Of a stretch of DNA of 16,076 nt, positions 666-14,930 are shown piece by piece (positions within the stretch are counted from its first letter, which is position 1; each line of letters starts with the position of its first letter). Source of the stretch: Chloroflexota bacterium (GTDB lineage Bacteria > Chloroflexota > UBA6077 > CF-72); the NCBI GenBank assembly GCA_019247135.1, contig JAFAPL010000377.1, positions 1 to 16,076 of the forward strand. The letters are read 5' to 3'. The position numbers and the translations under genes are program-made. The notes under the pieces are model-generated. The model worked only from the letters and a program-made list of their open reading frames with translations, did no database searches and had not been told where the DNA came from.

Positions 666-1910
666 TTATGTCGCCCGGGCGGTTTCGCGGGCGCCAGTTG
701 CGGCGCGCAGGGCGCTGGCTTTGTCGGTCCGCTCCCAGGGGAGATCCAGGTCAGTGCGACCGAAGTGACCATACGCGGCGGTCTTTTCGAACATCGGACG
801 GCGCAGTTCGAGCGCTTTGATGATGCCGGCCGGGCGGAGGTCGAAGGTCTGGGTGATGGCGCGTTCGATGTCTTCCACGGGCACCGTCTCGGTGCCGTAC
901 GTCTCGACCGCGACGGACACCGGGCGGGCCACACCGATCGCGTAGGCCAGGTTCACTTCGCAGCGCCTGGCCAGGTCCGCGGCAACGACGTTCTTGGCGA
1001 CCCAGCGGGCCGCGTACGCGGCGGAGCGGTCCACCTTGGTTGGATCTTTGCCCGAGAACGCGCCGCCGCCGTGGCGCGCCATGCCGCCGTACGTATCCAC
1101 GATGATCTTGCGACCGGTCAGCCCAGAGTCGCCAAATGGGCCGCCAACGACGAAACGGCCGGTCGGGTTGATGAAGTATTTGGTTTCGTCATCCAGGAAG
1201 CGTGGCTCGATGACCGCCTCGATCACGTGCTTTTTGACGTCACGCGAAATCTGTTCCTGGTCGATGTCTGGCGCGTGCTGCGTCGAAACCACGACGGCGT
1301 CGACGCGTGCTGGTTGGCCGTAGCGGTATTCGACAGTCACCTGGCTCTTGCCGTCGGGGCGCAGCCACGGCAACGTGCCGTTCTTGCGGACCTCCGACAA
1401 CCGACGGGTCAAACGGTGCGCGAGAGCAATCGTCAGTGGCATCAGCTCGGGCGACTCGTCGCAGGCGAAGCCGAACATCATGCCCTGGTCGCCAGCGCCT
1501 GTATCCAGATCATCTTGCAGATCACCCTGCTTGGCTTCCAACGCGTGATCGACGCCCATGGCGATGTCGCCGGACTGACGCGATAGCACCGAGACGATCT
1601 GCGCCTTGCCCAGGTCGAAGCCGGTGTCGGGCGTGGTGTAGCCGATGCGCGTCAGGACGCGCCGCACGATCTCTTCGACGACGTCATCGGGCACGCTCGG
1701 CGTTACCTCGCCAAAGACGGCAACCCAGCTGCGTGTTTCGTCGCTTTTGATGCCCGATTCGCACGCAACGCGCGCGGAAGGCGTCTTGGACAGCGCCCAG
1801 TCGAGTACCGCGTCCGAGATCTGGTCGCAGATCTTGTCGGGGTGTCCTTCGGTGACACTCTCGCTGGTGAACAGCAGGCGCGGATGACTCTGGAACGTGG
1901 TGCTACTCAA
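666..1910 (-). CDS. metK: S-adenosylmethionine synthetase
   Basis: This cytosolic enzyme makes SAM from methionine and ATP, releasing phosphate and diphosphate. The 414-residue protein has the usual family length. It carries the N-terminal ATP/methionine motif [11 protein letters not shown] (16-26), the GAGDQG signature (138-143) and the phosphate-binding glycine-rich loop [14 protein letters not shown] (281-294). The start is TTG at 1910-1908, because no ATG precedes the conserved region. GGAGGA at 1924-1919 sits 8 nt upstream, inside the end of the preceding metE. The TTG overlaps that gene's TGA by 4 nt (TTGA), a sign of translational coupling. It is the last gene of the five-gene methionine/SAM operon. 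The segment at residues 50-70 is somewhat unlike common MetK proteins, but all the signature motifs are intact. Confidence 0.97.
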
Positions 1911-3028
1911 GGTTGGTGTCCTCCGTGGACGGGGGAATCGGGCTCAGGTTTCGGTTCAACGACGGGTGTACCCAGGACATCAGCGCGTACCTGGGCGGTG
2001 CCCTCGCTCATCGCCTGCAGCTTCGCTCGCGCCATATCGGCGGGCACGTGCCGGAGGCCGCAATCAGGATTGACCAGGAGTCGATCGGGTGGCAGCACCT
2101 GCAGGGCTCGGCGCACGCGCGAGGCGATCAGCTCGGCGGATTCGGGCTGTGGGTTCTTCACGTCGATGACGCCCAGACCAAGGCTGAAGTGGGTCTCGGG
2201 GTAGCGGCGAAACAGATCCAAGTCGTCGTAGCCCTTGCGCGCGAACTCGAGCACCAGCTCGTCGATGTCGGCCTCCAGAACAGCAGGAAACAAGAACTCG
2301 TAATGGCCTTCCCAGGCTGGGCGGGCGTAGCGGTTACCGTAGCAGACGTGCACGGCTCGCTCGGGGCCGCGCTCGACCGCATCGAACACCACGTTGAGTG
2401 CCTGAATGGCGAGTCCGGCCTGGTCGGGGTAGCCCGCGAGGAACGGTTCGTCGATCTGGATGATGGCCGCGCCCGCGTGCGCCAGCGCCTTCACTTCTCG
2501 ATTCAGAATTCGCGCGAGGTCGAGTACGAGGTGCGCCGGATCCGAATAGGCCTCGTTGTGTATACGCCGTGCGAGTGAGAACGGGCCCGTCAGTGAGAAC
2601 TTGACCGGACGGTCGGTGTACTGGAGGGTGAACCGCAGATCGTCGACGAGGCCGAGCGTGGCTACCTCGTCGTCGACGGGTAGTGGGTGTCGGACATAGG
2701 CGTCGTAGTAGTCGTAATAGAAGGTCTTCGCGATGTGCGGAATCTCGACGCCAGGCATGCGCGCGAGAAAGTAGTCGACGTCGTTGTCGCGCCTGAGCTC
2801 GCCATCGGAAACGACGTCAACGCCAGCGCATTCCTGATCTTTCAACGCTGCTTTGATTGCTACTTCGTGGATATCGTCGAGGTACTGACCACTGATGCGG
2901 CGCTGGTAGAAGTCTGTCTTCAAGCGTTCGAGCCACTCGGGGACGGAGAACGAGCCGACGACGCTCGTGGTGAGCAAATGCGGCTGTGTGATCGTGCCGT
3001 TACGCTCGTGGGTTGCGGTTTCAGTCAC
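1907..3028 (-). CDS. Core MetE-type methionine synthase (catalytic half only)
   Basis: The 373-residue protein corresponds to the C-terminal, zinc-containing half of cobalamin-independent methionine synthase and lacks the N-terminal half of classic MetE. All four zinc ligands of the family can be placed: H227 and C229 (VHVCYGN), E261 (LVLEFA) and C323 (NPDCGL). E77 in SDGELRR and the IIQIDEP motif (189-195) match homocysteine-binding and catalytic positions. The expected reaction is methyl transfer to homocysteine to give methionine. Characterised stand-alone core-MetE proteins can take methyl from methylcobalamin instead of polyglutamylated methyl-THF; which donor applies here is inference. 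The start is GTG at 3028-3026, overlapping the methyltransferase stop by 8 nt with only a weak Shine-Dalgarno sequence, so coupling to the upstream gene is likely. Its product feeds MetK, encoded next. Confidence 0.9.
1919..1924 (-). promoter_or_regulatory. Ribosome binding site that fixes the TTG start of metK
   Basis: GGAGGA on the minus strand ends 8 nt before TTG at 1910. There is no ATG or GTG between it and the conserved MetK N-terminus, so this site decides the start. Confidence 0.75.
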
Positions 3029-4502
3029 GTGCTCGTGCAGTCATCGTCAGGACATTTGCGCCAACACGATACGCGAAAGCTTCGAACGTGACGTCGAAGC
3101 CGCGGCGCGAGCCGATCGCGGCAATCAGGGTGCCGTTGACCCAGTTCACGACGGAACCGTCATATTTCCCAGGCCCGCGGAAGCCGTTCAGGTACTGGTG
3201 GATGTCGGTCACGAACAGATCGTGACATTGCAGAATCCCATGCGGATGCAGGAGGGGGAGCGTCGCGGCAAAGCTGGCAGCCGCGCCGTTGCTCACGTGC
3301 ATGCGCAGATCGCCATTGGCCATGACGATCGGCCGCATCAACTCGCCATTGATGTCGGGCGCGATCTGGTAACGGTCGAGTTCGACCAGCGGCACGTAGC
3401 GCTCTTCCAGTTTCAAAGCATCCCAGGCTGCGCGCCAGAAGTCGACCGCCGCGGTCGGAGTGGGGAAGCGTTGCCGGTCGGAATCCGACAACAGCTCCGG
3501 GCCAAGCTTTAGCAGGCGCGAAACGAGTTCGGGGAGTTCTTTCGAGGTTGTGTCAAAGCGTTCAGCAATTGTCCGCGCGTCGGACTGCGAAAAGGCGGCG
3601 CGGACCTCCACCTGGAAGAGGTGACCACCGATGCGCACGATCTCGTCTGTAGGCAGGTTGTCGTAGACGTTCGAGATGTAGACGAGAAATGCCTTGTAGC
3701 GGAGAAACGCGAGCGTTTCGGTTGGCCGCAACGCGTCGAGCACGAGCGTACTGATGTGCTCGGCGTGATCCGCAACGTTTTTGCGCGCCAGCTCCAGCAC
3801 GTGCGGTGAGTAGTCACCCATCAGGTAATGCAGGCGTGTGTAGTACTCGCGGCCGCGCTCCTGGTCGAGCCGCCGAAACTCGTCTAGCCAGACGCGCGCC
3901 TGGTTGCCATTGCCGACGCCAATCTCGAGCACATACAGCTCTTCGGGCAAGGCTTTGCGCGCCGCCAGCGCATCCCACACCTGGAACAGCTGCAGGATCA
4001 GGTCGCGCGCGGCCTGGACGTTGCGCGCGTCGCTCTGTCCGCCCGGCAGAGCCTGTTCGTAGCCTTTGCCTGTCGCTTGTTCCCACAGGTTGAGGGATTT
4101 CCAGTACAGGCTGTTGAAGCCCCAGATGAGGCTGCGACTGCCGGGGCGCCAGTCTTCGAGCGCAACGTGGTCGGATGTGGAGGCGCCGTTCTGCAACGCG
4201 GCGGGAATGCAGTCCAGGTCTGGCGGCCTGGCGCGGCGCAAATCGATCGCGATCTCGTACGCCGCACCATCCGAGTCGTCAGGCGCGTGCGCGGCTTCCA
4301 GCGCCCACGGCTCGACACGCCGAATGCTGACCGCCTCGCGGAAGTTCTGCCTGTACTGGATCCAATCGCACACGACGCGCAATTTCGAGAGATCGGCGCT
4401 GCTGTGCGTTGCGGCGTGGAGCGCCGATGACACGATCGGTGCCGCATCGACGGCCTTGGGGCCTCGGAGACGGTCGTCGGACGTACGCAGCTCAATGAAC
4501 AC
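3021..4502 (-). CDS. MidA-like class I SAM-dependent methyltransferase, substrate unknown
   Basis: With the start chosen here the protein has 493 residues. Around residue 191 it has motif I (VLEIGVGNG) of Rossmann-fold methyltransferases, then YLMGDYSPHVLELAR and, near 275, YISNVYDNLPTDE. The last matches the position of the NE-x-x-DALP motif of the MidA/NDUFAF7 family (PF02636-like). The first ~190 residues are a long N-terminal region I do not recognise. An ATG at 4556 exists but has GGGAGG directly against it with no spacer. GTG at 4502-4500 has GGAGG (4515-4511) with an 8-nt spacer and overlaps the metF stop by 11 nt, so it is preferred. Lying between metF and metE, it probably uses SAM made by the operon. 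Mitochondrial MidA methylates a complex I subunit, but that role should not be transferred here. The methyltransferase call is fairly secure; the substrate is unknown. Confidence 0.78.
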   Translation of the reverse strand: MFIELRTSDDRLRGPKAVDAAPIVSSALHAATHSSADLSKLRVVCDWIQYRQNFREAVSIRRVEPWALEAAHAPDDSDGAAYEIAIDLRRARPPDLDCIPAALQNGASTSDHVALEDWRPGSRSLIWGFNSLYWKSLNLWEQATGKGYEQALPGGQSDARNVQAARDLILQLFQVWDALAARKALPEELYVLEIGVGNGNQARVWLDEFRRLDQERGREYYTRLHYLMGDYSPHVLELARKNVADHAEHISTLVLDALRPTETLAFLRYKAFLVYISNVYDNLPTDEIVRIGGHLFQVEVRAAFSQSDARTIAERFDTTSKELPELVSRLLKLGPELLSDSDRQRFPTPTAAVDFWRAAWDALKLEERYVPLVELDRYQIAPDINGELMRPIVMANGDLRMHVSNGAAASFAATLPLLHPHGILQCHDLFVTDIHQYLNGFRGPGKYDGSVVNWVNGTLIAAIGSRRGFDVTFEAFAYRVGANVLTMTARARD

Positions 4503-5445
4503 CGACTGTGCCTCCGCGTCGGATACCGGCCTGCTGGAGGATCTCCGGGATGGCATCCTCCCACGCGAAGGCCATGACGTGCACCCCGCTCACGCCGGGG
4601 ATTTCGCGGACCTGTTGGATGGTTTCAGCACAGATTGCCAGGCCCTCGGCCGACACGCGGTCTTCCGGAACGCCACGCATGCGTCGGATGATCTCTTCGG
4701 GGACGTACATACCGGGCACGTCGCGGCACATATGCTCCAGCGCGCGCAGGGATTTGACCGGACCGACGCCCGCGAGGATCGAGCAGCGTTCGTGCAACCC
4801 CAGGTCGCGGACGCGCTGCATGAAGCGCGCGAAGATCGGTACGTCGAAGATGAACTGCGTCTGGATGAACTGGGCACCGGCCGCCACCTTCTTGCCCAGC
4901 CGCTCGGCGCGGAACTGCAAAGGCGGGGCAAACGGGTTTTCAACGGCACCGATGAACCAGCTGGGGGCGACTTTGAGCTGGCGACCGGACAGCAGGCGGG
5001 CCTGATCGCGCATGGTCCGCGCGGTCCACAACAGGTGAATGGAATCGAAGTCGAAGACTGGCTTCGCCTCGGGATGGTCGCCGAAGCGAGGATGGTCGCC
5101 GGTCAGGAGCAGGACATTAGGAATGCCGATAGCGGCGGCGCCGAGCAGGTCGCTCTGCAGCCCGATGCGGTTTCGGTCACGACATTGCAGCTGCATGATG
5201 GGCTCGACCCCCTCCTGCAGCAGGGCCACACAGCCTGCCCAACTGGCGACCCGAACGATCGCGCTCTGGCCGTCCGTGACGTTCGCGGCATCGATGCAGC
5301 CCTTCAACAGCCGGGCTTTTCGCCTGAGAGCCTGGAGCGATGCTGAGCGTGGGGGACCAATCTCAGCCGTGACGACAAAATCACCCTGCTGGAGCTTCTC
5401 GCGCAGGCTCGGGTGTGGTTCGGCGCCGTTGCGTTCGAAGGTCAT
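4492..5445 (-). CDS. metF: Methylenetetrahydrofolate reductase, MetF subunit
   Basis: This flavin enzyme reduces 5,10-methylene-THF to 5-methyl-THF, the methyl source for methionine. The 317-residue TIM-barrel protein has the family's key features: the catalytic glutamate E28 in FVVTAEIGPPR, NVTDG (55-59), the flavin-site motif CRDRN (88-92), TGDHP with D117 matching the flavin-contacting aspartate, and TQ at 196-197 matching the folate-contacting glutamine. The ATG at 5445 overlaps the metV stop as ATGA, so the two subunits are translationally coupled. Pairing with a cysteine-rich MetV makes this the MetVF type known from acetogens, not the stand-alone NADH-dependent enterobacterial type. 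The true electron donor (NADH directly or a partner protein) cannot be read from the sequence. Confidence 0.93.
   Translation of the reverse strand: MTFERNGAEPHPSLREKLQQGDFVVTAEIGPPRSASLQALRRKARLLKGCIDAANVTDGQSAIVRVASWAGCVALLQEGVEPIMQLQCRDRNRIGLQSDLLGAAAIGIPNVLLLTGDHPRFGDHPEAKPVFDFDSIHLLWTARTMRDQARLLSGRQLKVAPSWFIGAVENPFAPPLQFRAERLGKKVAAGAQFIQTQFIFDVPIFARFMQRVRDLGLHERCSILAGVGPVKSLRALEHMCRDVPGMYVPEEIIRRMRGVPEDRVSAEGLAICAETIQQVREIPGVSGVHVMAFAWEDAIPEILQQAGIRRGGTVGVH
4511..4515 (-). promoter_or_regulatory. Ribosome binding site favouring the GTG start of the methyltransferase
   Basis: GGAGG on the minus strand lies 8 nt before GTG at 4502, inside the end of metF. It argues against the longer reading from the ATG at 4556, which would overlap metF by 65 nt with no usable spacer. 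Confidence 0.7.
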
Positions 5446-5948
5446 CGCCGCGCGGGCAGCTCCGAGCTGTCATCGGTCCAGAGATCTTCGTCTTCCCCGA
5501 GCCAGTAGTTGACCCATGAGCTCTGCCCCCATTTGCGCTGGTCCATCGGGCGCTGCAAGCGACGCAGGTCACTGGCGCGGCCTTCCGCCTCGGCCCGTTC
5601 GTAGGCCACGAGCCAGACACAGCGCGTGCCCGGATAGACCTCGCAGCTGCCGTCCATGCCGACCCCGCCGCAGGGACCATTGCGCAGCTGCTTGGGGCAC
5701 GTCATCGGGCAGGCGTATGCGGTGCTGGGCAGCTCGCATTGGCCGCACATGCGACAACCGAACAGGCGCTCCTTGGTGACACGCTCCCCAAAGGTGAACG
5801 CGCCATACAGCAGGGGGGCCTTGCGCAAGCCCGAGGCGACTGCATGCCAGACAGGGATGCGACGGTCGAGCACGTGGTGGAGGAGCATCATCGAGCGTGC
5901 GGACACGGCGGGTCGAAAGGGCCGTGGCGCGGTCGTGCTCGTGGGCAT
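5442..5948 (-). CDS. metV: MetV-like cysteine-rich subunit of methylenetetrahydrofolate reductase
   Basis: This is a small 168-residue protein of the MTHFR C-terminal/MetV type (PF12225-like). Eight cysteines lie at 65, 68, 71, 80, 84, 93, 102 and 110, in CRMCGQC, CPMTC, NGPCGG, GSCE and TRC contexts. This pattern suits metal binding, as iron-sulfur clusters or zinc. In acetogens MetV forms a complex with MetF and is thought to help pass electrons to the flavin. The start is ATG at 5948-5946, because AGAGGGG (5961-5955) precedes it by 6 nt. A longer reading from 6011 adds 21 unconserved-looking residues without a better site. Its stop overlaps metF by 4 nt. It is the first gene of the five-gene operon, so the promoter should lie within 5949-6106. 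Confidence 0.85.
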   Translation of the reverse strand: MPTSTTAPRPFRPAVSARSMMLLHHVLDRRIPVWHAVASGLRKAPLLYGAFTFGERVTKERLFGCRMCGQCELPSTAYACPMTCPKQLRNGPCGGVGMDGSCEVYPGTRCVWLVAYERAEAEGRASDLRRLQRPMDQRKWGQSSWVNYWLGEDEDLWTDDSSELPARR

Positions 5949-6106
5949 GGAAATCCCCTCTAGCTGAGAGTGTGGTGTGTTCGGTGACGGCGCTTCATCA
6001 GCGCGGGCCACAAAGTTTATGACGGTTGTTTTGGAGTATTACGACAAACGCCGTCGCCCTGGTTATGCGGATACTGCTTGACGGCGCGGGATGAGGGGTC
6101 AGACAC
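5949..6106. promoter_or_regulatory. Divergent control region between metV operon and HMT fusion gene
   Basis: These 158 bases separate the minus-strand metV operon from the plus-strand homocysteine methyltransferase fusion, so both promoters should be here. The centre (about 6013-6047) is AT-richer than its surroundings. The 9-mer TGACGGCGC occurs twice in direct orientation (5985-5993 and 6079-6087). Its 7-bp core occurs once inverted (CGCCGTC, 6049-6055), giving a perfect 7-bp inverted repeat with GACGGCG at 6080-6086. No convincing -35/-10 pair and no recognisable SAM, SAH or cobalamin riboswitch was found. The GACGGCG copies are candidate operators for a shared regulator, possibly the PucR protein encoded downstream; that link is inference. 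Confidence 0.5.
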
Positions 6107-8023
6107 TTGTTAGATCACTACATGGCTGCGCGACGTCGGCGGGCGCCCGTAGCTGGCCCTGACTTCGTCCAGCGGCTGGCCAGCGAGGTGCTGGTGTGCG
6201 ACGGGGCGATGGGCACAATGCTCCACGCTGGCGGCGTCTCGCTGGACCGATCACTGCCGGAGCTGAACCTGTCGCACGCGGACCTGGTCTGCGCTATCCA
6301 TCGGGCCTACATCGCGGCAGGCGCCGACGTCATCGAGACCAACACCTTTGGCGCAAGCCGCTTCCGGCTCAGCCGCTACGGGATTGGTGACCGTGTGACG
6401 GAAGTCAACCGCGCCGGTGCCCGTGTCGCGCGCGAGGCGATCGCGCAGGCGGGCACACCGGGGCTTCTGGTCGCCGGCTCTGTCAGCCCGGCGACGCCGG
6501 CGGGGCTGGGCCATCGTATTGCCGCGCGCGAGCTGCGTGAGGCCTTCCGCGAGCAGATCGAGGCTTTGCTGGAGGGCGGCGTCGACCTGCTGCTGTTCGA
6601 GACCTTCGGAAATCTGGCCGAGCTGGTCGCCGCGCTCGAAGTTGCGCAGGGCCTGGACGCGGGGCCGATCGTGGCGCAGATGACGTTCGTCGAGGACGGT
6701 CGCACGCTGGGCGGCGACAGCCCGGAGGAAGTCGCGACCACGCTGTCCGAGCTCGGAGTGGCGGCCATCGGAGCCAACTGCACGCTCGGGCCTCAGGGTC
6801 TTCTTGACGTCATCAGCGAACTGGCCCGGTACACACAGGTGCCGCTCACCGCGCAACCCAATGCGGGCCCACCGACGCTCGTGGATGGCCAGTTTCAATA
6901 CACGGCCGACCCGGCCTACTTCGCGCGCCACGCACGGCGGTTCGTTGAGCTGGGCGCGGCGCTGGTGGGTGGCTGCTGTGGAACAACGCCGGCACACATC
7001 TCGGCGGTAGCGGCCGCGGTCGCGGGACTGGTACCTACCGCACCGCGTCGGAGCGCAGGTGAATCGCGGGTTCGTGGGCAACCAGCCATGACGCCGGACA
7101 CGAGTGCCGCGGCGCGTGCGGCGCATGGTTTGTTCGAAGGACGAGCGGGCGGGTTCGTGATTGCGTGTGAGCTGCCGGCGCCGCCAGCCGCCGATGCCGA
7201 ACGTGCGGTTCGTGATGCCAGCGCATTGAAGAATGCCGGGTGCCAGATGGTCATTGTCGGCCCAGTGGGTACCACGCGAGCGCAGGTCAGTCCGGCCAGC
7301 ATTGCGCTGATGGTCCAGCAACGCGTGCCCGGGCTGGACGTGATCCTCACCTCGACCACCTGGGAAAAAAGCCTCATGGTGCTGCAGGCTGATCTGCTCG
7401 GCGCCTACGCCTTCGGCATTCGGCACGTGCTGTGTCGAACGGGGACTCCACCGCTGCACGGTGACTACCCCAACGCGGCGGGCGTCTGGGAAGTGGACTC
7501 GCTCGGACTGATCGAGGTTCTGCGCGGGCTCAACGACGGGCGCGACTACAACGGAATCCCGCTCGGACGCCCTACGGCGTTCGTGATCGGGGCGCGTGTG
7601 AATCCCGCCGCCAGCGACTTCGATCATGAGGTCGAGGTTGGTCGACGCAAGCTGGAAGCCGGCGCTGACTTTCTCATGACACCGCCGGTCTTCGAGCTGG
7701 ACACGCTGGAGCGCCTGCTCAGAGCGATCGATGTTCCTGCCCAGGTGCCGGTGTTGCTCGGCTTGATGCCGCTGAAGGATTTGCGCCACGCGGAGTACTT
7801 GCAGCACGAGGTGCCCGAGACGGCCATTCCCGGTGAAGTGCTCGAGCGGATGTGGCGGGCCGGCGAGAGCGGGCCACAGGTTGGACGTGACATCCTGGTC
7901 GAGCTGGCCGCGGCAGCCCGCGAGCGCGCCGGCGTGCACGGAATCGTGCTTTCGTCCTCCGCGGGTTCGGCGGCGGAGCTTGCGGGGTTGTTGCCCGCGT
8001 TGGCCACGGCCTCGCTGCGCTGA
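6107..8023 (+). CDS. Homocysteine S-methyltransferase fused to a degenerate MTHFR-like domain
   Basis: This 638-residue two-domain protein has the layout of Bacillus YitJ. Residues ~20-310 are a homocysteine S-methyltransferase barrel with zinc ligands C225 (IGANC), C290 and C291 (GGCCGTTP). Residues ~340-635 are an MTHFR-like barrel. Aligned by eye with MetF, the second domain keeps the catalytic-type glutamate (E355, ACELP). It lacks CRDRN (TTWEKS at 418-423), has TGT (445-447) in place of TGD, and TPP (525-527) in place of TQ. Folate reductase activity is therefore doubtful, while the methyltransferase half looks intact. The start is TTG at 6107, with GAGGGG (6093-6098) 8 nt upstream; the next in-frame ATG (6122) is too far from that site. 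The stop shares one base with the PucR start. The methyl donor for the first domain is unknown. Confidence 0.9.
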   Translation: MLDHYMAARRRRAPVAGPDFVQRLASEVLVCDGAMGTMLHAGGVSLDRSLPELNLSHADLVCAIHRAYIAAGADVIETNTFGASRFRLSRYGIGDRVTEVNRAGARVAREAIAQAGTPGLLVAGSVSPATPAGLGHRIAARELREAFREQIEALLEGGVDLLLFETFGNLAELVAALEVAQGLDAGPIVAQMTFVEDGRTLGGDSPEEVATTLSELGVAAIGANCTLGPQGLLDVISELARYTQVPLTAQPNAGPPTLVDGQFQYTADPAYFARHARRFVELGAALVGGCCGTTPAHISAVAAAVAGLVPTAPRRSAGESRVRGQPAMTPDTSAAARAAHGLFEGRAGGFVIACELPAPPAADAERAVRDASALKNAGCQMVIVGPVGTTRAQVSPASIALMVQQRVPGLDVILTSTTWEKSLMVLQADLLGAYAFGIRHVLCRTGTPPLHGDYPNAAGVWEVDSLGLIEVLRGLNDGRDYNGIPLGRPTAFVIGARVNPAASDFDHEVEVGRRKLEAGADFLMTPPVFELDTLERLLRAIDVPAQVPVLLGLMPLKDLRHAEYLQHEVPETAIPGEVLERMWRAGESGPQVGRDILVELAAAARERAGVHGIVLSSSAGSAAELAGLLPALATASLR

Positions 8024-9336
8024 TGTCGCGCATCGCGGCCGCCGAGGGGACCGAGGATGCCGACGCCTTGCGTAGCTCTTTACGTACATTGCAGGCCCAA
8101 AACGGTGCGCTGCGCCAGCTCGTGGCTATTCACGACCGGCTCGGAGCGCTCGTGTTGCAGGGCGCCGACGGGGCGTCCATCACGCGCGTTCTGGCTGAGC
8201 TGATCGGCCGGCGCGTGCTGTTGCTCGATGCGCTCTTGCAGGTGGTAGCCATGCACGGCGGCACCGACAGTGCGTGGCGTCCATCGCAGGACTACATACG
8301 CGCGGTGCTCGGCGCACTCGAGCGTGAGCGAAGGCCGTTGCGCGTGCCACCAATGACCGATCTCGGCGTGCCACGGGCGGTTGTTCTGGCGCCGGTCGCG
8401 GTTGGCGAAGCGATTCTGGGGTATCTCGCCATTCTTGCCCAGGGCGACGACGGTGCGAGTGAAGAGCTCGAGCTGCAGATCGTGCAACACGCGGCCACGG
8501 TGTACGCCCTCTCGATGATGCGCGAACGCATGGCGGCGGAGGTGGCTCGTCAACTGAAGGACGAGCTGTTCGAAGGGCTCCTCCTGGGGCGTACGCAAGA
8601 CGAACAGGTTGCGCGCGAGCGGGCAATGCGGCTCGGATACAAGCCCGAGATCACGTACCGCGTGGTCGTCCTGGTCGCGCGGGAGGCTGACGCGACGGCT
8701 GCCGAGGAACGGCCGGAAACTGTCGCACGACGGCGGCGGCTGCTGGAGAGTCTGTCGGAGCTGTGTGCCCGACGCTCGGATTCAGCGTTCGCGGCCTTGC
8801 GGGAAGACGAGCTGGTCGTCCTGCTACCTGAGGATGATGACCCGGTGGCTGTTGGGCGGATGGCGCTGCAGCAGGCGGCGGCACTGCTGCCCGCCTGGCA
8901 GCTGACGGTCGGGGTCGGTGGGACGTGCTCCAATGCGTCGGCGATCGCGCGCTCGTATGCGCAGGCCAGGCGGGCGCTCGAGACGGCGTGGCGCTTCGGG
9001 CGGCAGGGCGAGGTCGTCTCGTTCGACGACCTGGGCTTGTACCGGCTGTTGTTTCACGTGACCGACCCGGACGAGCTGCGTGGTTTTGTCGAGCAGGTGC
9101 TTGGGGCGCTGCTCGAGTACGACCAGCGGCACAATGCTGATTTCGTGCGCACGTTGGGCACGTTTCTGGAGCACAACGGCAACCTGCAGGCGACCGCGCG
9201 CGACCTGAACCTCCACGTCAACTCGGTCGCGTACCGGTTGCAGCGGATTCAGTCGATCGCGGGGCTGGACCTGGAGCGTGCCGAGGATCGCCTGCTCGCG
9301 CAGGTGGCGCTCAAGATCGTGGCGGCGCACGCCTAG
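8023..9336 (+). CDS. PucR/CdaR-family transcriptional regulator
   Basis: The 437-residue protein has the PucR-family plan. A helical/GAF-like N-terminal sensor region (about 15-170) is followed by a central CdaR GGDEF-like region (about 205-325) and a C-terminal PucR-type helix-turn-helix at 371-432 (LEHNGNLQATARDLNLHVNS, then VAYRLQRIQ). Known members respond to purine, sugar-acid or amino-acid metabolites. The ligand here cannot be told from sequence. The ATG at 8023 shares its A with the TGA of the fusion gene (TGATG) and has no clear Shine-Dalgarno sequence, so it is probably translated by coupling. Cotranscription with a homocysteine methyltransferase suggests a role in regulating methionine or one-carbon genes, perhaps both arms of the divergent region at 5949-6106. 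Confidence 0.88.
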   Translation: MSRIAAAEGTEDADALRSSLRTLQAQNGALRQLVAIHDRLGALVLQGADGASITRVLAELIGRRVLLLDALLQVVAMHGGTDSAWRPSQDYIRAVLGALERERRPLRVPPMTDLGVPRAVVLAPVAVGEAILGYLAILAQGDDGASEELELQIVQHAATVYALSMMRERMAAEVARQLKDELFEGLLLGRTQDEQVARERAMRLGYKPEITYRVVVLVAREADATAAEERPETVARRRRLLESLSELCARRSDSAFAALREDELVVLLPEDDDPVAVGRMALQQAAALLPAWQLTVGVGGTCSNASAIARSYAQARRALETAWRFGRQGEVVSFDDLGLYRLLFHVTDPDELRGFVEQVLGALLEYDQRHNADFVRTLGTFLEHNGNLQATARDLNLHVNSVAYRLQRIQSIAGLDLERAEDRLLAQVALKIVAAHA

Positions 9337-10673: not shown

Positions 10674-11822
10674 TCAACCCCAGATCTTGCGAGCGGTCTC
10701 GACGACGAGCTCGAGCTTGCGCTTCTGTTCGTCCCAGCTGAGCAGGTTGCCGCGTTCGACGCTCGCAAATCCGCACTGCGGCGAAAGGGCAAGGTTCTCC
10801 AGCGGCACGTACCGCGAGGCCTCGTCGACCCGCCGCCGCAAGTCGTCTTGGGATTCCAATGCGCCCAGCTTGGTGGTGACCAGGCCGAGGACGACTTGCT
10901 TTCCGCGCGGCACGAAGCGCAGCGGTTCGAAGCCACCCGAGCGGTCCGAATCATACTCCAGTAAGAAGCGATCCGCCTCGAGCTGCCCGAAGACTTTCTC
11001 GGCAATACGGTCGTAGCCGCCCGCGGTGTGCCACGCGCTCCGACCGTTGCCGCGGCAGATGTGCGTCGCCAGGAGTACCTTCGACCGGTCAAGACCCGAA
11101 ACGGCCATATTGTCGCCGCGAATGTCCTCGTCCATGGCCGCGTCCGGGTCCACGCCGATGGACCGCCATGCTTCGCGCCGGTCCTCCGGGATGTAGTCAG
11201 GCCAGTGGGGATTATCGACCTGAATGTAGGTCACGCCCTCGGCGGCAAGGGCCTCGATCTCGGCTTTGATGATGCGCACCACGTCCTGCATCAGATCCCA
11301 GCGGCTGCTGTAGACCTTGTCGCTGGTGCCCGGCTTCCAGCCGCGCGCCACGATGTACGAAGCCGCGGGCAGGGTGATCTTGAACGGGCCGCCCGCGTGC
11401 TGTTTCAGGAAGGGCACTTCTTCCTGCGTCATTCGCTTGCGCTGCCGAAGCTTCTCGCCGACAACCATGCCGGCTTGCTGCGGCATCTCGCGCACCATTT
11501 CCTGCAGGCCGCTCCGACCAGCGCCCGTTGCGACAGGGTCGGGCAGCTTCCACTCGAAGCGGATCGGCACTTCGCCCTTGACATAGCCATCGACCGAAGT
11601 GACAAAGTCGCCGGCCCAATTACCGCGGCGATACTCGCCATCGGTATAGACGTTGATGCCGACCTGCTTCTGCAGCTCCAGCGCCTGCAGGATCGCACGA
11701 TCCTCGACCTGGGTGAGCTGTTCCCTCGAAATCTGCTTCTGTCCGAAGGCTTCGTGGGCCTGAAGTACTTCGGGCGGACGCAGCAGGCTGCCGACATGGT
11801 CGGCACGGTATGGAGCGGTCAT
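10674..11822 (-). CDS. MetE-type methyltransferase, YxjG/YxjH-like variant
   Basis: This 382-residue protein is built on the MetE catalytic barrel only. The zinc ligands are present: H254 and C256 (THICRGN), E289 (FLLEYDSD) and C350 (SPQCGF). E63 in TDGEYRR matches the conserved glutamate. At the motif that reads QIDEP in the other two paralogues it has QVDNPHW (201-207), so a catalytic-region Asp-Glu pair has become Asp-Asn. It opens with YRADHVGSLLRP, as in the YxjG/YxjH group of methionine-synthase-like proteins. Expected chemistry is methyl or alkyl transfer to a thiol; homocysteine as acceptor is likely but unproved, and coenzyme-M-type transferases share this fold. The ATG at 11822 overlaps the previous gene's TGA (ATGA). 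It is the last gene of the PadR-led operon. Confidence 0.85.
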   Translation of the reverse strand: MTAPYRADHVGSLLRPPEVLQAHEAFGQKQISREQLTQVEDRAILQALELQKQVGINVYTDGEYRRGNWAGDFVTSVDGYVKGEVPIRFEWKLPDPVATGAGRSGLQEMVREMPQQAGMVVGEKLRQRKRMTQEEVPFLKQHAGGPFKITLPAASYIVARGWKPGTSDKVYSSRWDLMQDVVRIIKAEIEALAAEGVTYIQVDNPHWPDYIPEDRREAWRSIGVDPDAAMDEDIRGDNMAVSGLDRSKVLLATHICRGNGRSAWHTAGGYDRIAEKVFGQLEADRFLLEYDSDRSGGFEPLRFVPRGKQVVLGLVTTKLGALESQDDLRRRVDEASRYVPLENLALSPQCGFASVERGNLLSWDEQKRKLELVVETARKIWG

Positions 11823-12898
11823 TTGCGGGCAATCCCTCCAGTCGGAACAAGCAGGCTATCGCGCACCACGCTCGCCGCGCGCGTCATCGCCCGAAGTTTC
11901 TCAAATGCAACCTGGCGCGGCAGGTACTTCATGCCACAGTCGGGCGCCAGGACCAGGCGCTCAGGCGCGACGTAGCTGAGCGCGGCGCGGATGCGGCCCT
12001 CGACGACCTCGGGCGTCTCTACATCGGTTGTGCCGAGGTCAAGTACGCCGAGCACGATCGTCTTGTTGTCGAGTTGACCCAGGACTGAGAGGTCCAGGTG
12101 GGGCTGAGCGGCTTCGATCGAGATCTGATCGACGTTCGCGTCGCGGAGCTCGGACAAGAACGGATACCCAGCGCCTACCTGTTTGTTCTTCACGACGAGC
12201 CCGTAGCCGAAGCATGTGTGCAGCACCGTGCTGGCCGTGATGCCATCAACCGCTTGGTTGATGGCTGCGATCGCGTACTGGCGCGCTTTTTCCGCGCGCG
12301 CCTGCAAGTAGGGCTCGTCGATCTGGAGGACGTCCGCGCCGGCCGTTTGCAGGTCGTGTAGCTCTTCATTGACGGCCTGGGCGAAATCCATGGCCAGGCG
12401 CGACTCGTCGCCATAAAAGTCGTCCTGGGCCTGTTGCGCCATGGTGAACGGGCCAGGGACGGTGATCTTGATGGTTCGGTCGGTGTGCTGTCGGAGAAAC
12501 TCGACGTCTCTGACTTCCACGGGTCGTCTGCGACGGACCGGGCCGACGATCCGCGGAACGGTGTCGAGCTTGCCTGAGCGGCTGAGAGTCTGGCCTGGAT
12601 TGTCCAGGTCGATGCCGTCGAGCGCGGTAGCGAAGTGATTGCTGTAACTCTCGCGGCGGATTTCACCGTCGGAGAGGACGTCGAGCGCGGAGCGTTCCAT
12701 CTCATGGATCGCGACGATGGTGGCGTCGTCCTGCGCTTGTTCGAGGAACTCCGGCGCGACGCGCCACACGTCGCGGGCGCGCACGCGTGGCGGCAAACGA
12801 CTCAGCAGTTTGTCGCGGTCGACGAGCCAGTCGGGCTGCGGGTAGCTGCCGACCACCGTCGTCGGCAAGAGCCGCGCGCTGGCGGCACGTATCGCCAT
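11819..12898 (-). CDS. Core MetE-type methionine synthase paralogue
   Basis: This 359-residue MetE catalytic-half protein has zinc ligands H227 and C229 (LHTCFGYG), E262 (QISIEAA) and C321 (APDCGM). It also has SDGEIRRES (76-84, with the conserved E79) and LQIDEP (191-196). It is clearly divergent from the copy at 1907-3028, with a different N-terminal segment (VVGSYPQPDWLVDRDKLLSR) and an inserted basic stretch VRRRRPVEV at 121-129. Predicted role: methyl transfer to homocysteine or a related thiol from an unidentified donor. The ATG at 12898 lies 15 nt after the PadR stop with only a weak AGG upstream. Its TGA overlaps the next MetE-like gene by 4 nt, so the two are probably made in fixed proportion and may act together. 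Confidence 0.87.
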   Translation of the reverse strand: MAIRAASARLLPTTVVGSYPQPDWLVDRDKLLSRLPPRVRARDVWRVAPEFLEQAQDDATIVAIHEMERSALDVLSDGEIRRESYSNHFATALDGIDLDNPGQTLSRSGKLDTVPRIVGPVRRRRPVEVRDVEFLRQHTDRTIKITVPGPFTMAQQAQDDFYGDESRLAMDFAQAVNEELHDLQTAGADVLQIDEPYLQARAEKARQYAIAAINQAVDGITASTVLHTCFGYGLVVKNKQVGAGYPFLSELRDANVDQISIEAAQPHLDLSVLGQLDNKTIVLGVLDLGTTDVETPEVVEGRIRAALSYVAPERLVLAPDCGMKYLPRQVAFEKLRAMTRAASVVRDSLLVPTGGIARK

Positions 12899-13552: not shown

Positions 13553-13727
13553 ACCCTCTGTCCCCTCGAGCTCGAGTATATCTTGATTCGTTCAGGTCGC
13601 ACGAACCTCGGGCTGGGCTTTTTGGAGAGTTGCCACGAACTGAGGCGGTTGCAAAAAGCAGGCGCGGGGCGAACAATCGACCGTTAGGTATTGGTATACC
13701 GAACCATCCCAGGGGGTCTTGGCCTTC
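13553..13727. promoter_or_regulatory. Divergent promoter region, PadR operon / LLM oxidoreductase
   Basis: This 175-bp gap carries an AT-richer patch on each side. On the minus strand TATACT (complement of 13575-13580) lies 22 nt before the PadR TTG and fits a -10 box. On the plus strand TGG-TATACC (13692-13700) fits an extended -10 box, 28 nt before the GTG of the LLM gene. It contains the palindrome GGTATACC (13693-13700). No good -35 box is seen for either. CTCGAGCTCGAG near 13566-13576 is also symmetric. These are candidate PadR sites by position; none is a clear match to the known ATGT-N8-ACAT PadR operator. Confidence 0.45.
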
Positions 13728-14930
13728 GTGAAGGTGTTCGTCTTCGATCTGTTGCCATATGGAGAAAACCTCGAGCACGTGAAGGACGGCCCCGAGCTGC
13801 CGTGGCCGCTTGAAAAGCGGCACTTCAAGCCAGAGGTCGCGGTGCGCACCTACGCCGAGCACCTGGATGCCTGGGAAGAGCTGGACCGTCTGGGGTACGA
13901 CGGTGTCGGGTTCAACGAGCACCACACGTCCCCTTACGGGCTGATGAACTCGCCGAATCTGCTCGCCGCTTCGGCTGCTCAGCGCACCAGGCGTTTGAAG
14001 CTGTTGATCTACGGAAATTTGCTGCCGATCCATGAGCCACTGAGGCTCGCCGAAGAGCTAGCGATGCTGGATTGCCTGTCGAATGGCCGAATCATTGCAG
14101 GCTTCGCGCGAGGCATTCCGCGCGAGCACAACGTCTACAACGTGCCGCAAAACGAGTCCCGGGCGCGATTCGAAGAGGCGTGGGAGATCATCCGCGGGCT
14201 CTGGACCGAAGAGGTCTTCTCATTTGCTGGAAACTTCTGGTCGTACCACGATGTCGCGTTGTGGCCGCGACCGGTGCAGCAACCGCATCCACCGGTCTGG
14301 GTACCGGTGACGGCGAGCAAGGAGACCATCCAATGGGCCGGTCGCTACAACATCCCGATCACGCCCGGCCAGGGCAATCACCGCGGCGTGCGCGAGGACG
14401 TCATTCGCTACTACGCGCGTCAGCTCGAGGAGAACGGGCATCGCATCACGCCCGCTCATCTGATCATTCAGGCCGACGTGTACATTGCCGACTCCAAGGC
14501 GCGGGCGGTGGAGGAAGCCGGCCCGTACACGCTGTACTTCAATCACACCTTGTTCAGCCACGGCAATATCACCGAACGGAATCTGCAGGCGCAGACCGGC
14601 TACGTCGCGGCTTCGTCCCACGACTACCTCCGACCTGAGAATGTCCCGTTCGTTTCGGGCAACCGCGAGCGCTACCGTGGCATGACCATGGAAGGGTTGC
14701 GAGAGCTCGCCGAGCACATGCCGTGGGGCACGCCTGACGAAGTAGCCGAGCGCATCATCGACGCGGCGGACCATGCGGGCGCCAACCAGGTCACTGTGAG
14801 CCTGAATCGAGGCGCGATGCCACAGGAGATGTTTCTCAACCAGATCCGCCGATTTGCCACGGAAGTGCTGCCGCGTCTACAGACGCACGAGGTTACGCAA
14901 GTGCCTCTGGCGAACGCCGCCGCCGTTTAG
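13728..14930 (+). CDS. LLM-class (luciferase-like) flavin-dependent oxidoreductase
   Basis: This 400-residue TIM-barrel protein of the bacterial luciferase family uses reduced FMN or F420 in known members. Diagnostic stretches are YDGVGFNEHHTSPYGLMNSP, LLIYGNLLPIHEPLRLAEEL, GRIIAGFARGIPREH and a C-terminal WGTPDEVAERI. GTG at 13728 is chosen because it starts the typical VKVFVFDLLPYGENL N-terminus and lies 11 nt after AGGGGG (13711-13716). TTG at 13719 is only 2 nt from that site, though it would add just three residues. Known relatives oxidise alkanesulfonates, long alkanes, aldehydes or aromatic chelators; the substrate here is not identifiable. It is divergent from PadR and sits 26 nt before a peptide-type substrate-binding lipoprotein, which suggests oxidation of an imported compound. 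Confidence 0.88.
   Translation: MKVFVFDLLPYGENLEHVKDGPELPWPLEKRHFKPEVAVRTYAEHLDAWEELDRLGYDGVGFNEHHTSPYGLMNSPNLLAASAAQRTRRLKLLIYGNLLPIHEPLRLAEELAMLDCLSNGRIIAGFARGIPREHNVYNVPQNESRARFEEAWEIIRGLWTEEVFSFAGNFWSYHDVALWPRPVQQPHPPVWVPVTASKETIQWAGRYNIPITPGQGNHRGVREDVIRYYARQLEENGHRITPAHLIIQADVYIADSKARAVEEAGPYTLYFNHTLFSHGNITERNLQAQTGYVAASSHDYLRPENVPFVSGNRERYRGMTMEGLRELAEHMPWGTPDEVAERIIDAADHAGANQVTVSLNRGAMPQEMFLNQIRRFATEVLPRLQTHEVTQVPLANAAAV

Follow-up and report, generated by a model that had tools for sequence, protein, structure and literature searches.

The closest described relatives of the protein studied here are the bifunctional enzymes covered by the models NF006396 (NCBI) and PRK08645, in which a homocysteine S-methyltransferase is joined to a methylenetetrahydrofolate reductase (MTHFR). 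In the flavin-dependent MTHFR of E. coli, Glu28 is the catalytic residue and the pterin ring is held by Asp120 and Gln183. The D120N mutant of this enzyme retains 0.3% of kcat, as given in the available excerpts of PMC11094777. Core methionine synthases without folate domains have also been described (PMC7857596, in the part available).

The window, which is the entire stretch of 16,076 nucleotides that was analysed, encodes a fusion protein of this type (Table 1). It contains 638 residues if translation begins at a TTG codon and 633 if it begins at the ATG at 6122; the window's own protein is found in the database as a homologue of 633 residues (P0001). The NF006396 model accepts the protein over its full length, with a score of 544.2 bits against a cut-off of 453. 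The second barrel scores weakly on PF02219, however, with 58 bits compared to 130 for the neighboring MetF. The AlphaFold model of the fusion has a mean pLDDT of 82 and a pTM of 0.53, and the relative placement of its domains is uncertain.

Table 1. Features of the window. Positions are those of the whole stretch; residue numbers are those of the fusion protein.
Feature	Position	Strand	Basis
MetK, S-adenosylmethionine synthetase	666..1910	-	domain search
Core methionine synthase, MetE catalytic domain only	1907..3028	-	PF01717, 150.6 bits
Class I SAM-dependent methyltransferase-like protein, co-occurring marker	3021..4556	-	PF02636
MetF, motifs intact (CRDRN, TGD, TQ)	4492..5445	-	PF02219, 130 bits; alignment
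MetV (DUF5981), reductase partner subunit	5442..5948	-	PF12225, 91 bits
Divergent promoter region between metV and fusion; degenerate TTTGTG-N7-CACAAA at 6030-6048	5949..6106	.	repeat search
Fusion protein: MetH-type homocysteine S-methyltransferase and remodelled MTHFR-fold barrel	6107..8023	+	ORF, PF02574, PF02219, NF006396
Homocysteine S-methyltransferase domain, residues 29-305	6191..7021	+	PF02574, 251 bits
MTHFR-fold barrel, residues 350-600	7154..7906	+	Pfam PF02219
Glu355, equivalent of E. coli MTHFR catalytic Glu28, kept	7169..7171	+	alignment
Pro386; Asp in 100% of ordinary rows, Pro in 99% of altered rows	7262..7264	+	
Gln393; Arg in 100% of 73 ordinary, kept in 0/41 altered; Gln in just 73%	7283..7285	+	
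Residues 415-422, TSTTWEKS, where ordinary fusions read HxTCRDRN	7349..7372	+	alignment
Residues 445-449, TGTPP in place of TGDPP; Thr447 at pterin-binding Asp120 position	7439..7453	+	profile alignment
Arg497, new, 99% of altered rows; Ala in 65% of ordinary rows	7595..7597	+	
Residues 525-527, TPP in place of TQP; Pro526 at pterin-binding Gln183 position	7679..7687	+	profile alignment
Asp558, 97% of altered rows; Ser in 93% of ordinary rows	7778..7780	+	
PucR-type regulator, GGDEF_2 and HTH_30	8023..9336	+	domain search

The initial annotation of this DNA had proposed that the reductase half of the fusion lost three active-site motifs (CRDRN, TGD and TQ) that the neighboring MetF retains. 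Alignment with ordinary fusions, those with the reductase motifs, bears this out: all three are changed in the fusion barrel (TGD to TGT, TQ to TP), and MetF keeps all three. The CRDRN motif is indeed altered, with the replacements Cys to Thr, Arg to Trp, Asp to Glu, Arg to Lys, and Asn to Ser, but two of the five are conservative when aligned position by position. The strongest losses in the stretch 415-422 are His to Thr415 and Arg to Trp419. Beyond these motifs, the Asp at 386 and the Arg at 393 are universally lost. In a profile alignment with solved MTHFRs, TGD falls on their RGD motif and TQ on their TQ motif, at the positions of Asp120 and Gln183 (codons 7445-7447 for Asp to Thr447 and 7682-7684 for Gln to Pro526, both on the forward strand). 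The proposal that changed positions contact folate in known MTHFRs holds for these two, which contact the pterin (PMC11094777, in the available excerpts). As both pterin-anchoring residues are gone, folate binding in the manner of MTHFR, one role suggested for a pseudo-reductase, is unlikely. Judged from its residues, the altered fusion is very probably not a flavin-dependent MTHFR.

The changes are not confined to the window. A homologue search gave 7916 proteins over the threshold, and the best 120 were analysed; RTGTPP is found in 117 of 121 sequences (the window protein and these best 120 of 7916, P0001 among them). Genomic loci provided 114 candidate frames, 108 of which had wide coverage and 93 of which were distinct (88 ordinary and 5 altered fusions). 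These locus rows were sorted by the Trp within 415-422, and Trp419 is therefore circular for the five altered rows, the other 121 being unaffected. The comparison sets comprise 126 altered and 88 ordinary fusions, or 41 and 73 at 80% redundancy. The altered states recur in the listed homologues and in separate genomes, far more often than chance would give, which disposes of a lone oddity or a sequencing artefact. The initial annotation would have been contradicted by motifs intact in orthologues, and this does not apply, since the changes are conserved there and are a trait of the clade.

Asp386, His415, Arg419, Asp447, and Gln526 are each present in 99-100% of the 88 ordinary fusions. At positions 386, 393, 415, 419, 447, and 526, the ordinary residue is found in none of the 41 non-redundant altered proteins and in 99-100% of the 73 ordinary ones. 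The comparison set for these losses was the 21 barrel positions conserved at 97% or above in ordinary fusions. The ordinary residue is kept in 22% of the 41 altered proteins at position 390, in 12% at position 571, and in 88-100% of altered rows at the other 13 (95% for Glu355). Gly446, Asn476, Gly478, Lys515, Gly519, Pro548, Ala562, Gly593, and Gly612 are kept in at least 95% of the altered proteins. Most of the lost residues have been replaced by nearly fixed new ones. Those at 386, 415, 419, 422, 447, 497, 526, and 558 are present in 97-100% of the 126 altered rows; they include Thr415, Trp419 (126 of 126 aligned rows), Thr447, Arg497, Pro526, and Asp558. These eight positions are also fixed at 95-100% in the 41 non-redundant proteins, and position 393 is not, being conserved at 73%. 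For conservation among the positions of the altered barrel, the replaced sites rank only at the 73rd to 85th percentile. The same filter for near-fixed residues also picks barrel positions 428, 436, 537, and 564, and the methyltransferase half differs too at a few sites (40, 51, and 239).

The active sites of TIM barrels lie at the mouth, where the strands end. In the predicted model, eight of the replaced sites are at the strand ends of the second barrel or no more than about five residues away from them, the exception being position 393. Across the clade, the mouth of the reductase has been selectively replaced and the fold has been kept. In the main clade, the Asp, Gln, His, and Arg residues of the reductase mouth are lost, and a conserved set of Trp, Thr, Arg, and Pro residues is gained.

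A tree was made from 26 altered fusions and 88 ordinary ones by a quick method with no bootstrap and a midpoint root; in it, a branch with an SH-aLRT support of 100 sets all altered rows apart. Under the midpoint root, the altered clade groups with ordinary fusions of Chloroflexota, with a support of 92 for this fork. Altered fusions were found in Chloroflexota and Actinomycetota. Full-length relatives with 58-73% identity are present in 4 of 400 sampled Chloroflexota genomes, and all four have the altered motifs; in the 30 best Chloroflexota loci, the motifs read as altered in 4 and ordinary in 26. The four carriers (G166, G150, G198, and G078; genomes and loci carry G and L numbers) belong to one class, sampled with 29 genomes. 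For Actinomycetota, 200 genomes were sampled from the order of a Streptosporangiaceae-labelled MAG. Among the matches listed, only six of these gave full-length ones: G003, G405, G519, G471, G547, and the further diverged G408.

The members from Actinomycetota share Trp419, with the exception of G408, and their other replacements vary (Ala, Pro or Gly at 386; Thr, Ser or Asn at 447; Arg at 526). Neither G003 nor G408 has retained the equivalent of Glu355. The statement in the initial annotation that this glutamate remains is correct for the window and for 124 of the 126 altered rows; it fails for two of the 126 and for G408. Neutral decay, with the reductase half a relic retained only for the folding or stability of the fusion, would account for such variation and for the members that have lost the Glu. 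Conservation is also slightly lower in the barrel half, whose median identity to the window is 0.73 compared to 0.78 for the methyltransferase half, and the barrel is the more conserved half in 5 of 125 rows; an early local identity figure had indicated that the barrel was more conserved than the rest, which these 125 rows do not support. Against decay, eight of the nine replaced sites are fixed at 95-100% in the 41 proteins and the neighboring Thr445, Pro448, Pro449, Tyr454, Pro455, and Pro527 at 100%, compared to a mean of 74% for the domain. Decay is quite improbable on this evidence, and a pseudo-reductase produced by mere degeneration does not describe the domain, as most of its lost residues have nearly fixed successors in the main clade. 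For the variable Actinomycetota residues and for G408, which has neither Trp419 nor the Glu, relaxed constraint is as good an explanation as a new site.

The altered fusion is never the only MTHFR gene in the genomes searched. All ten altered-fusion genomes have a further PF02219 gene, compared to 12 of 31 ordinary-fusion genomes; in the other 19 of the 31, the fusion is the sole PF02219 gene. The pooled contrast gives a Fisher value of 0.0007, which ignores shared ancestry. Six of the ten altered genomes are from Actinomycetota and all 31 controls are from Chloroflexota, and hence the fair comparison is that within Chloroflexota, with 4 of 4 against 12 of 31 and a weaker Fisher value of 0.035, which ignores shared ancestry as well. 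This weaker value leaves the confidence in the readings below unchanged, because their odds rest mainly on the residues. The Glu, Asp, and Gln motifs are intact in the further MTHFR of all ten altered-fusion genomes. It is a MetF in G166 and G150, an ordinary fusion in G198, and a canonical MetF in G003, G078, G405, G408, G519, G547, and G471; the canonical genes of G078 and the six Actinomycetota genomes are high-scoring. It had been suggested that the reductase work moved to MetVF. Another intact MTHFR does accompany the altered fusion in ten of ten genomes, but canonical MetF also takes this place, and MetVF is not the only substitute.

Two observations concern individual MTHFR genes. In G003 (contig 144, 11097-12047), the MTHFR gene that neighbors the PF02636-like gene gives two separate partial matches, and in-frame stops appear in one search of it, for which a frameshift, an assembly error or a pseudogene is possible. 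In locus L119 (G002 contig 11, an Anaerolineae-labelled MAG), a stretch of about 7 kb contains three MTHFR-like genes.

The altered fusion could still be a methylenetetrahydrofolate reductase, with an unusual flavin mode or a flavin-free one. The fold and the equivalent of Glu28 are kept, and the flavin-free enzyme Mfr shows that this fold can work without flavin (PMC11094777, available excerpts). According to the same excerpts, however, Mfr keeps the Gln, as Gln177, and its residue at the Asp120 position is Glu55, while the Gln and the Asp are found in 0 of 41 altered proteins, which typically have Pro526 and Thr447 there. In addition, another MTHFR, its motifs intact, accompanies the altered fusion in every genome searched. 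This explanation is the least probable of those considered, with only a very small chance of being correct.

The homocysteine half of the fusion looks catalytically intact from its sequence. Cys225, Cys290, and Cys291, which we take to be the zinc ligands, are present, and all three are Cys in 17 of 17 rows (two of which are one locus). The best solved relative of this domain is T. maritima MetH, and the scores against solved relatives are 203 bits for MetH, 103 for BHMT, and 79 for MmuM. This half being closer to MetH than to BHMT or MmuM, methylcobalamin is favored as the methyl donor, from general knowledge of MetH. Three relatives were found in viral contigs, all of them to the homocysteine domain only.

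An alternative role for the barrel would be that of the methyl-THF:cob(I)alamin methyltransferase domain of a split cobalamin-dependent methionine synthase under PucR control, in which it would replace the PF00809 domain and work with a separate B12-binding and activation protein. The fusion protein itself has no match to the PF00809 folate domain up to an E value of 1. A MetH fragment with only the B12 and activation domains is present in G166 and G150 (L164, 7566-9242; L165, 4423-5793), in alike gene surroundings, and no PF00809 match was found in these two genomes. There is thus no recognisable dihydropteroate synthase (FolP) in them either, for which missing parts of the MAGs or folate salvage are possible. 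Five of the 29 genomes of the class are without a PF00809 match; in MAGs that may be incomplete such an absence is weak evidence, and FolP is missing too. Many of the 120 listed homologues of the fragment, several named Chloroflexi or Chloroflexota, are of like length and also have no pterin domain, in a search with a length window that shut out full MetH. The best protein-database matches among those listed have the same make-up, without pterin and homocysteine domains, and relatives of 700-890 residues at about 61-63% identity keep the pterin domain.

The predicted structure of the two-barrel fusion aligns over residues 14-638 with the homocysteine and folate halves of MetH, and the acidic Glu355 is kept in most members, both as a split synthase would have it. 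The rms distance of this alignment is 17.8 over 501 residues, though, and the barrels are thus not placed alike in the predicted fusion and in MetH. Moreover, both pterin-anchoring residues are lost, and the fragment is present in just two of the four Chloroflexota carriers (G198 is without it). G078 has a full MetH, G003 has a MetH-like frame of 1238 residues with PF00809, and in G405, G408, and G519 the homocysteine-domain matches lie in frames of 1192-1408 residues, which by their length are probably full MetH. These genes weaken the replacement of the folate domain as a general role of the altered barrel, and the split synthase is an unlikely explanation. It is also the boldest of the readings: if true, a core enzyme would have exchanged one of its domains for a non-orthologous one.

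The altered fusion is accompanied by a block of five genes, metK, metE-core, the PF02636-like methyltransferase, metF, and metV (666-5948 on the reverse strand of the window), which occurs in Chloroflexota and Actinomycetota. The start of MetV was placed at the ATG at 5946-5948 by choice, its open reading frame opening at 6011. All five genes are found in the window, G166, G150, G519, G408, and G003 (with metK partial, at the end of a 4.5-kb locus). Partial blocks are seen in three genomes: G198 has four of the five genes over the sequence examined, G471 has metV and metF together with the methyltransferase, and G078, over the 4.4 kb examined, has metE-core together with the methyltransferase. 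The pair of fusion and PucR genes adjoins the block in the window, G166, G150, G519, and G471, and is on a separate contig from it in G198, G408, G003, and G078. The PF02636-like protein is present in eight of the ten altered-fusion genomes (absent from G405 and G547) compared to none of the 31 ordinary-fusion genomes, and in 4 of 4 compared to 0 of 31 within Chloroflexota. Its relatives are mostly called hypothetical protein where they are named, and a PDB sequence search with it gave no match up to an E value of 1. The block resembles a cassette dedicated to methyl supply, or else a core methionine synthase that has an accessory protein.

Elsewhere in the window, two more MetE-core proteins are located in tandem (10674-12898, reverse strand) beside a PadR regulator, with a luciferase-like monooxygenase (13719-14930, forward strand) next to this tandem. 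Together with the gene at 1907-3028, this makes three core methionine synthases in the window that have no folate domain. No Rfam element was matched in the window at gathering scores.

On the other side, the fusion gene is followed directly by the PucR-type gene, whose ATG shares one base with the stop codon of the fusion. A PucR-type gene adjoins the altered fusion in 11 of 11 loci (the window and the ten other genomes). None is near the 88 ordinary loci; many of these had just some 1.5 kb of flanking sequence, but the two genes of an altered pair are no more than 200 bases apart. The inverted repeat TTTGTG-N6-CACAAA is located upstream of pucR in four Actinomycetota genomes, exact in G003, G405, and G471 and with one mismatch in G519 (by locus, exact in L023, L257, and L259, with one mismatch in L256). 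In a control of 1.2 Mb (L001-L080 without L023), this repeat occurs with 0 exact copies and one copy with a mismatch. With a spacer of seven, the repeat is found between metV and the fusion, exact in G166 and with one mismatch in G150; in the same control, no copy of it is exact and five have one mismatch at most. The copy in the window has three mismatches and alone is not notable. No copy within one mismatch was found in the window, G198 or G078 with spacers of 5-8, nor in G408 or G547 with a spacer of 6. TTTGTG-N6-CACAAA is a candidate PucR operator.

This arrangement could also mean that the fusion is a sensor or trigger enzyme, which binds a metabolite of the methionine cycle and controls the adjacent PucR protein by contact, its barrel being a pseudoenzyme. 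In keeping with this, the two genes adjoin in 11 of 11 loci from two phyla, G408 with its further diverged barrel mouth included, and several loci have inverted repeats in their promoter regions. On the other hand, if PucR is an ordinary activator that binds a ligand, it would equally be expected beside the enzyme gene that it controls, and the homocysteine half looks catalytically intact. There is perhaps a small chance that the fusion acts in this way, about the same as for the split synthase.

The best reading overall is that the fusion is a PucR-controlled homocysteine S-methyltransferase, with a barrel of MTHFR descent that no longer acts as a flavin-dependent reductase and now forms a different binding site (probability roughly 0.4). 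The other MTHFR, MetVF in the window, would make the methyl-folate. PucR would bind the TTTGTG/CACAAA repeats and regulate the fusion and, where the genes are divergent, metV-metF as well. The rebuilt barrel may bind a ligand or methyl donor other than FAD and methylene-folate, and in this way it would serve the methyltransferase half; such a donor- or ligand-binding role is proposed tentatively, at somewhat less than even odds. The retention of Glu355 in 124 of 126 rows counts against this reading, in that it would also fit a residual folate chemistry. Other points against it are the varied replacements in Actinomycetota, the lower conservation of the barrel half, the modest percentile rank of the replaced sites, the 73% at position 393, the few differences in the methyltransferase half, and the loci with no repeat copy within one mismatch.

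The name MTHFR given to the altered fusion in databases is probably wrong, and a pathway reconstruction that takes this protein as the MTHFR of the cell is probably wrong as well. In a single clade from two phyla, named MTHFR by curated models, the pterin-binding residues have been lost and a new conserved pocket has been gained. The altered fusion is a clean case of a reductase barrel re-used beside a methyltransferase. A candidate regulator, a candidate operator, and a co-inherited methyl-supply block go with it. A literature search within open-licence PMC papers found no title on it.

A comparison with known systems places the altered fusion closest to the bifunctional enzymes of NF006396 and PRK08645, with which it shares the domain order, the length, and homology over the full length. 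It differs from them in the replaced reductase mouth, in the PucR neighbor, and in the company of another MTHFR in each genome searched; the His, Arg, Asp, and Gln of the ordinary NF006396 members (99-100% of 88) are absent from the window fusion. With the flavin-dependent MTHFRs (MetF of the E. coli or Thermus type) it shares the PF02219 fold and the catalytic Glu, but not the equivalents of Asp120 and Gln183 or the His and Arg positions. Flavin-independent Mfr, as which we count MSMEG_6649, is a further relative of the barrel. Mfr keeps the Gln and has a Glu at the Asp120 position (PMC11094777, available excerpts), where the fusion has Pro526 and Thr447. Cthe_2304 (3ijd), an uncharacterised stand-alone MTHFR-like barrel with two bound 5-methyl-THF molecules according to its PDB title, is also among the closest known systems. 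Like the homocysteine and folate half of cobalamin-dependent MetH, the fusion consists of two barrels, the first of them MetH-like with its cysteines; its second barrel, in contrast to that of MetH, is of MTHFR descent and not PF00809.
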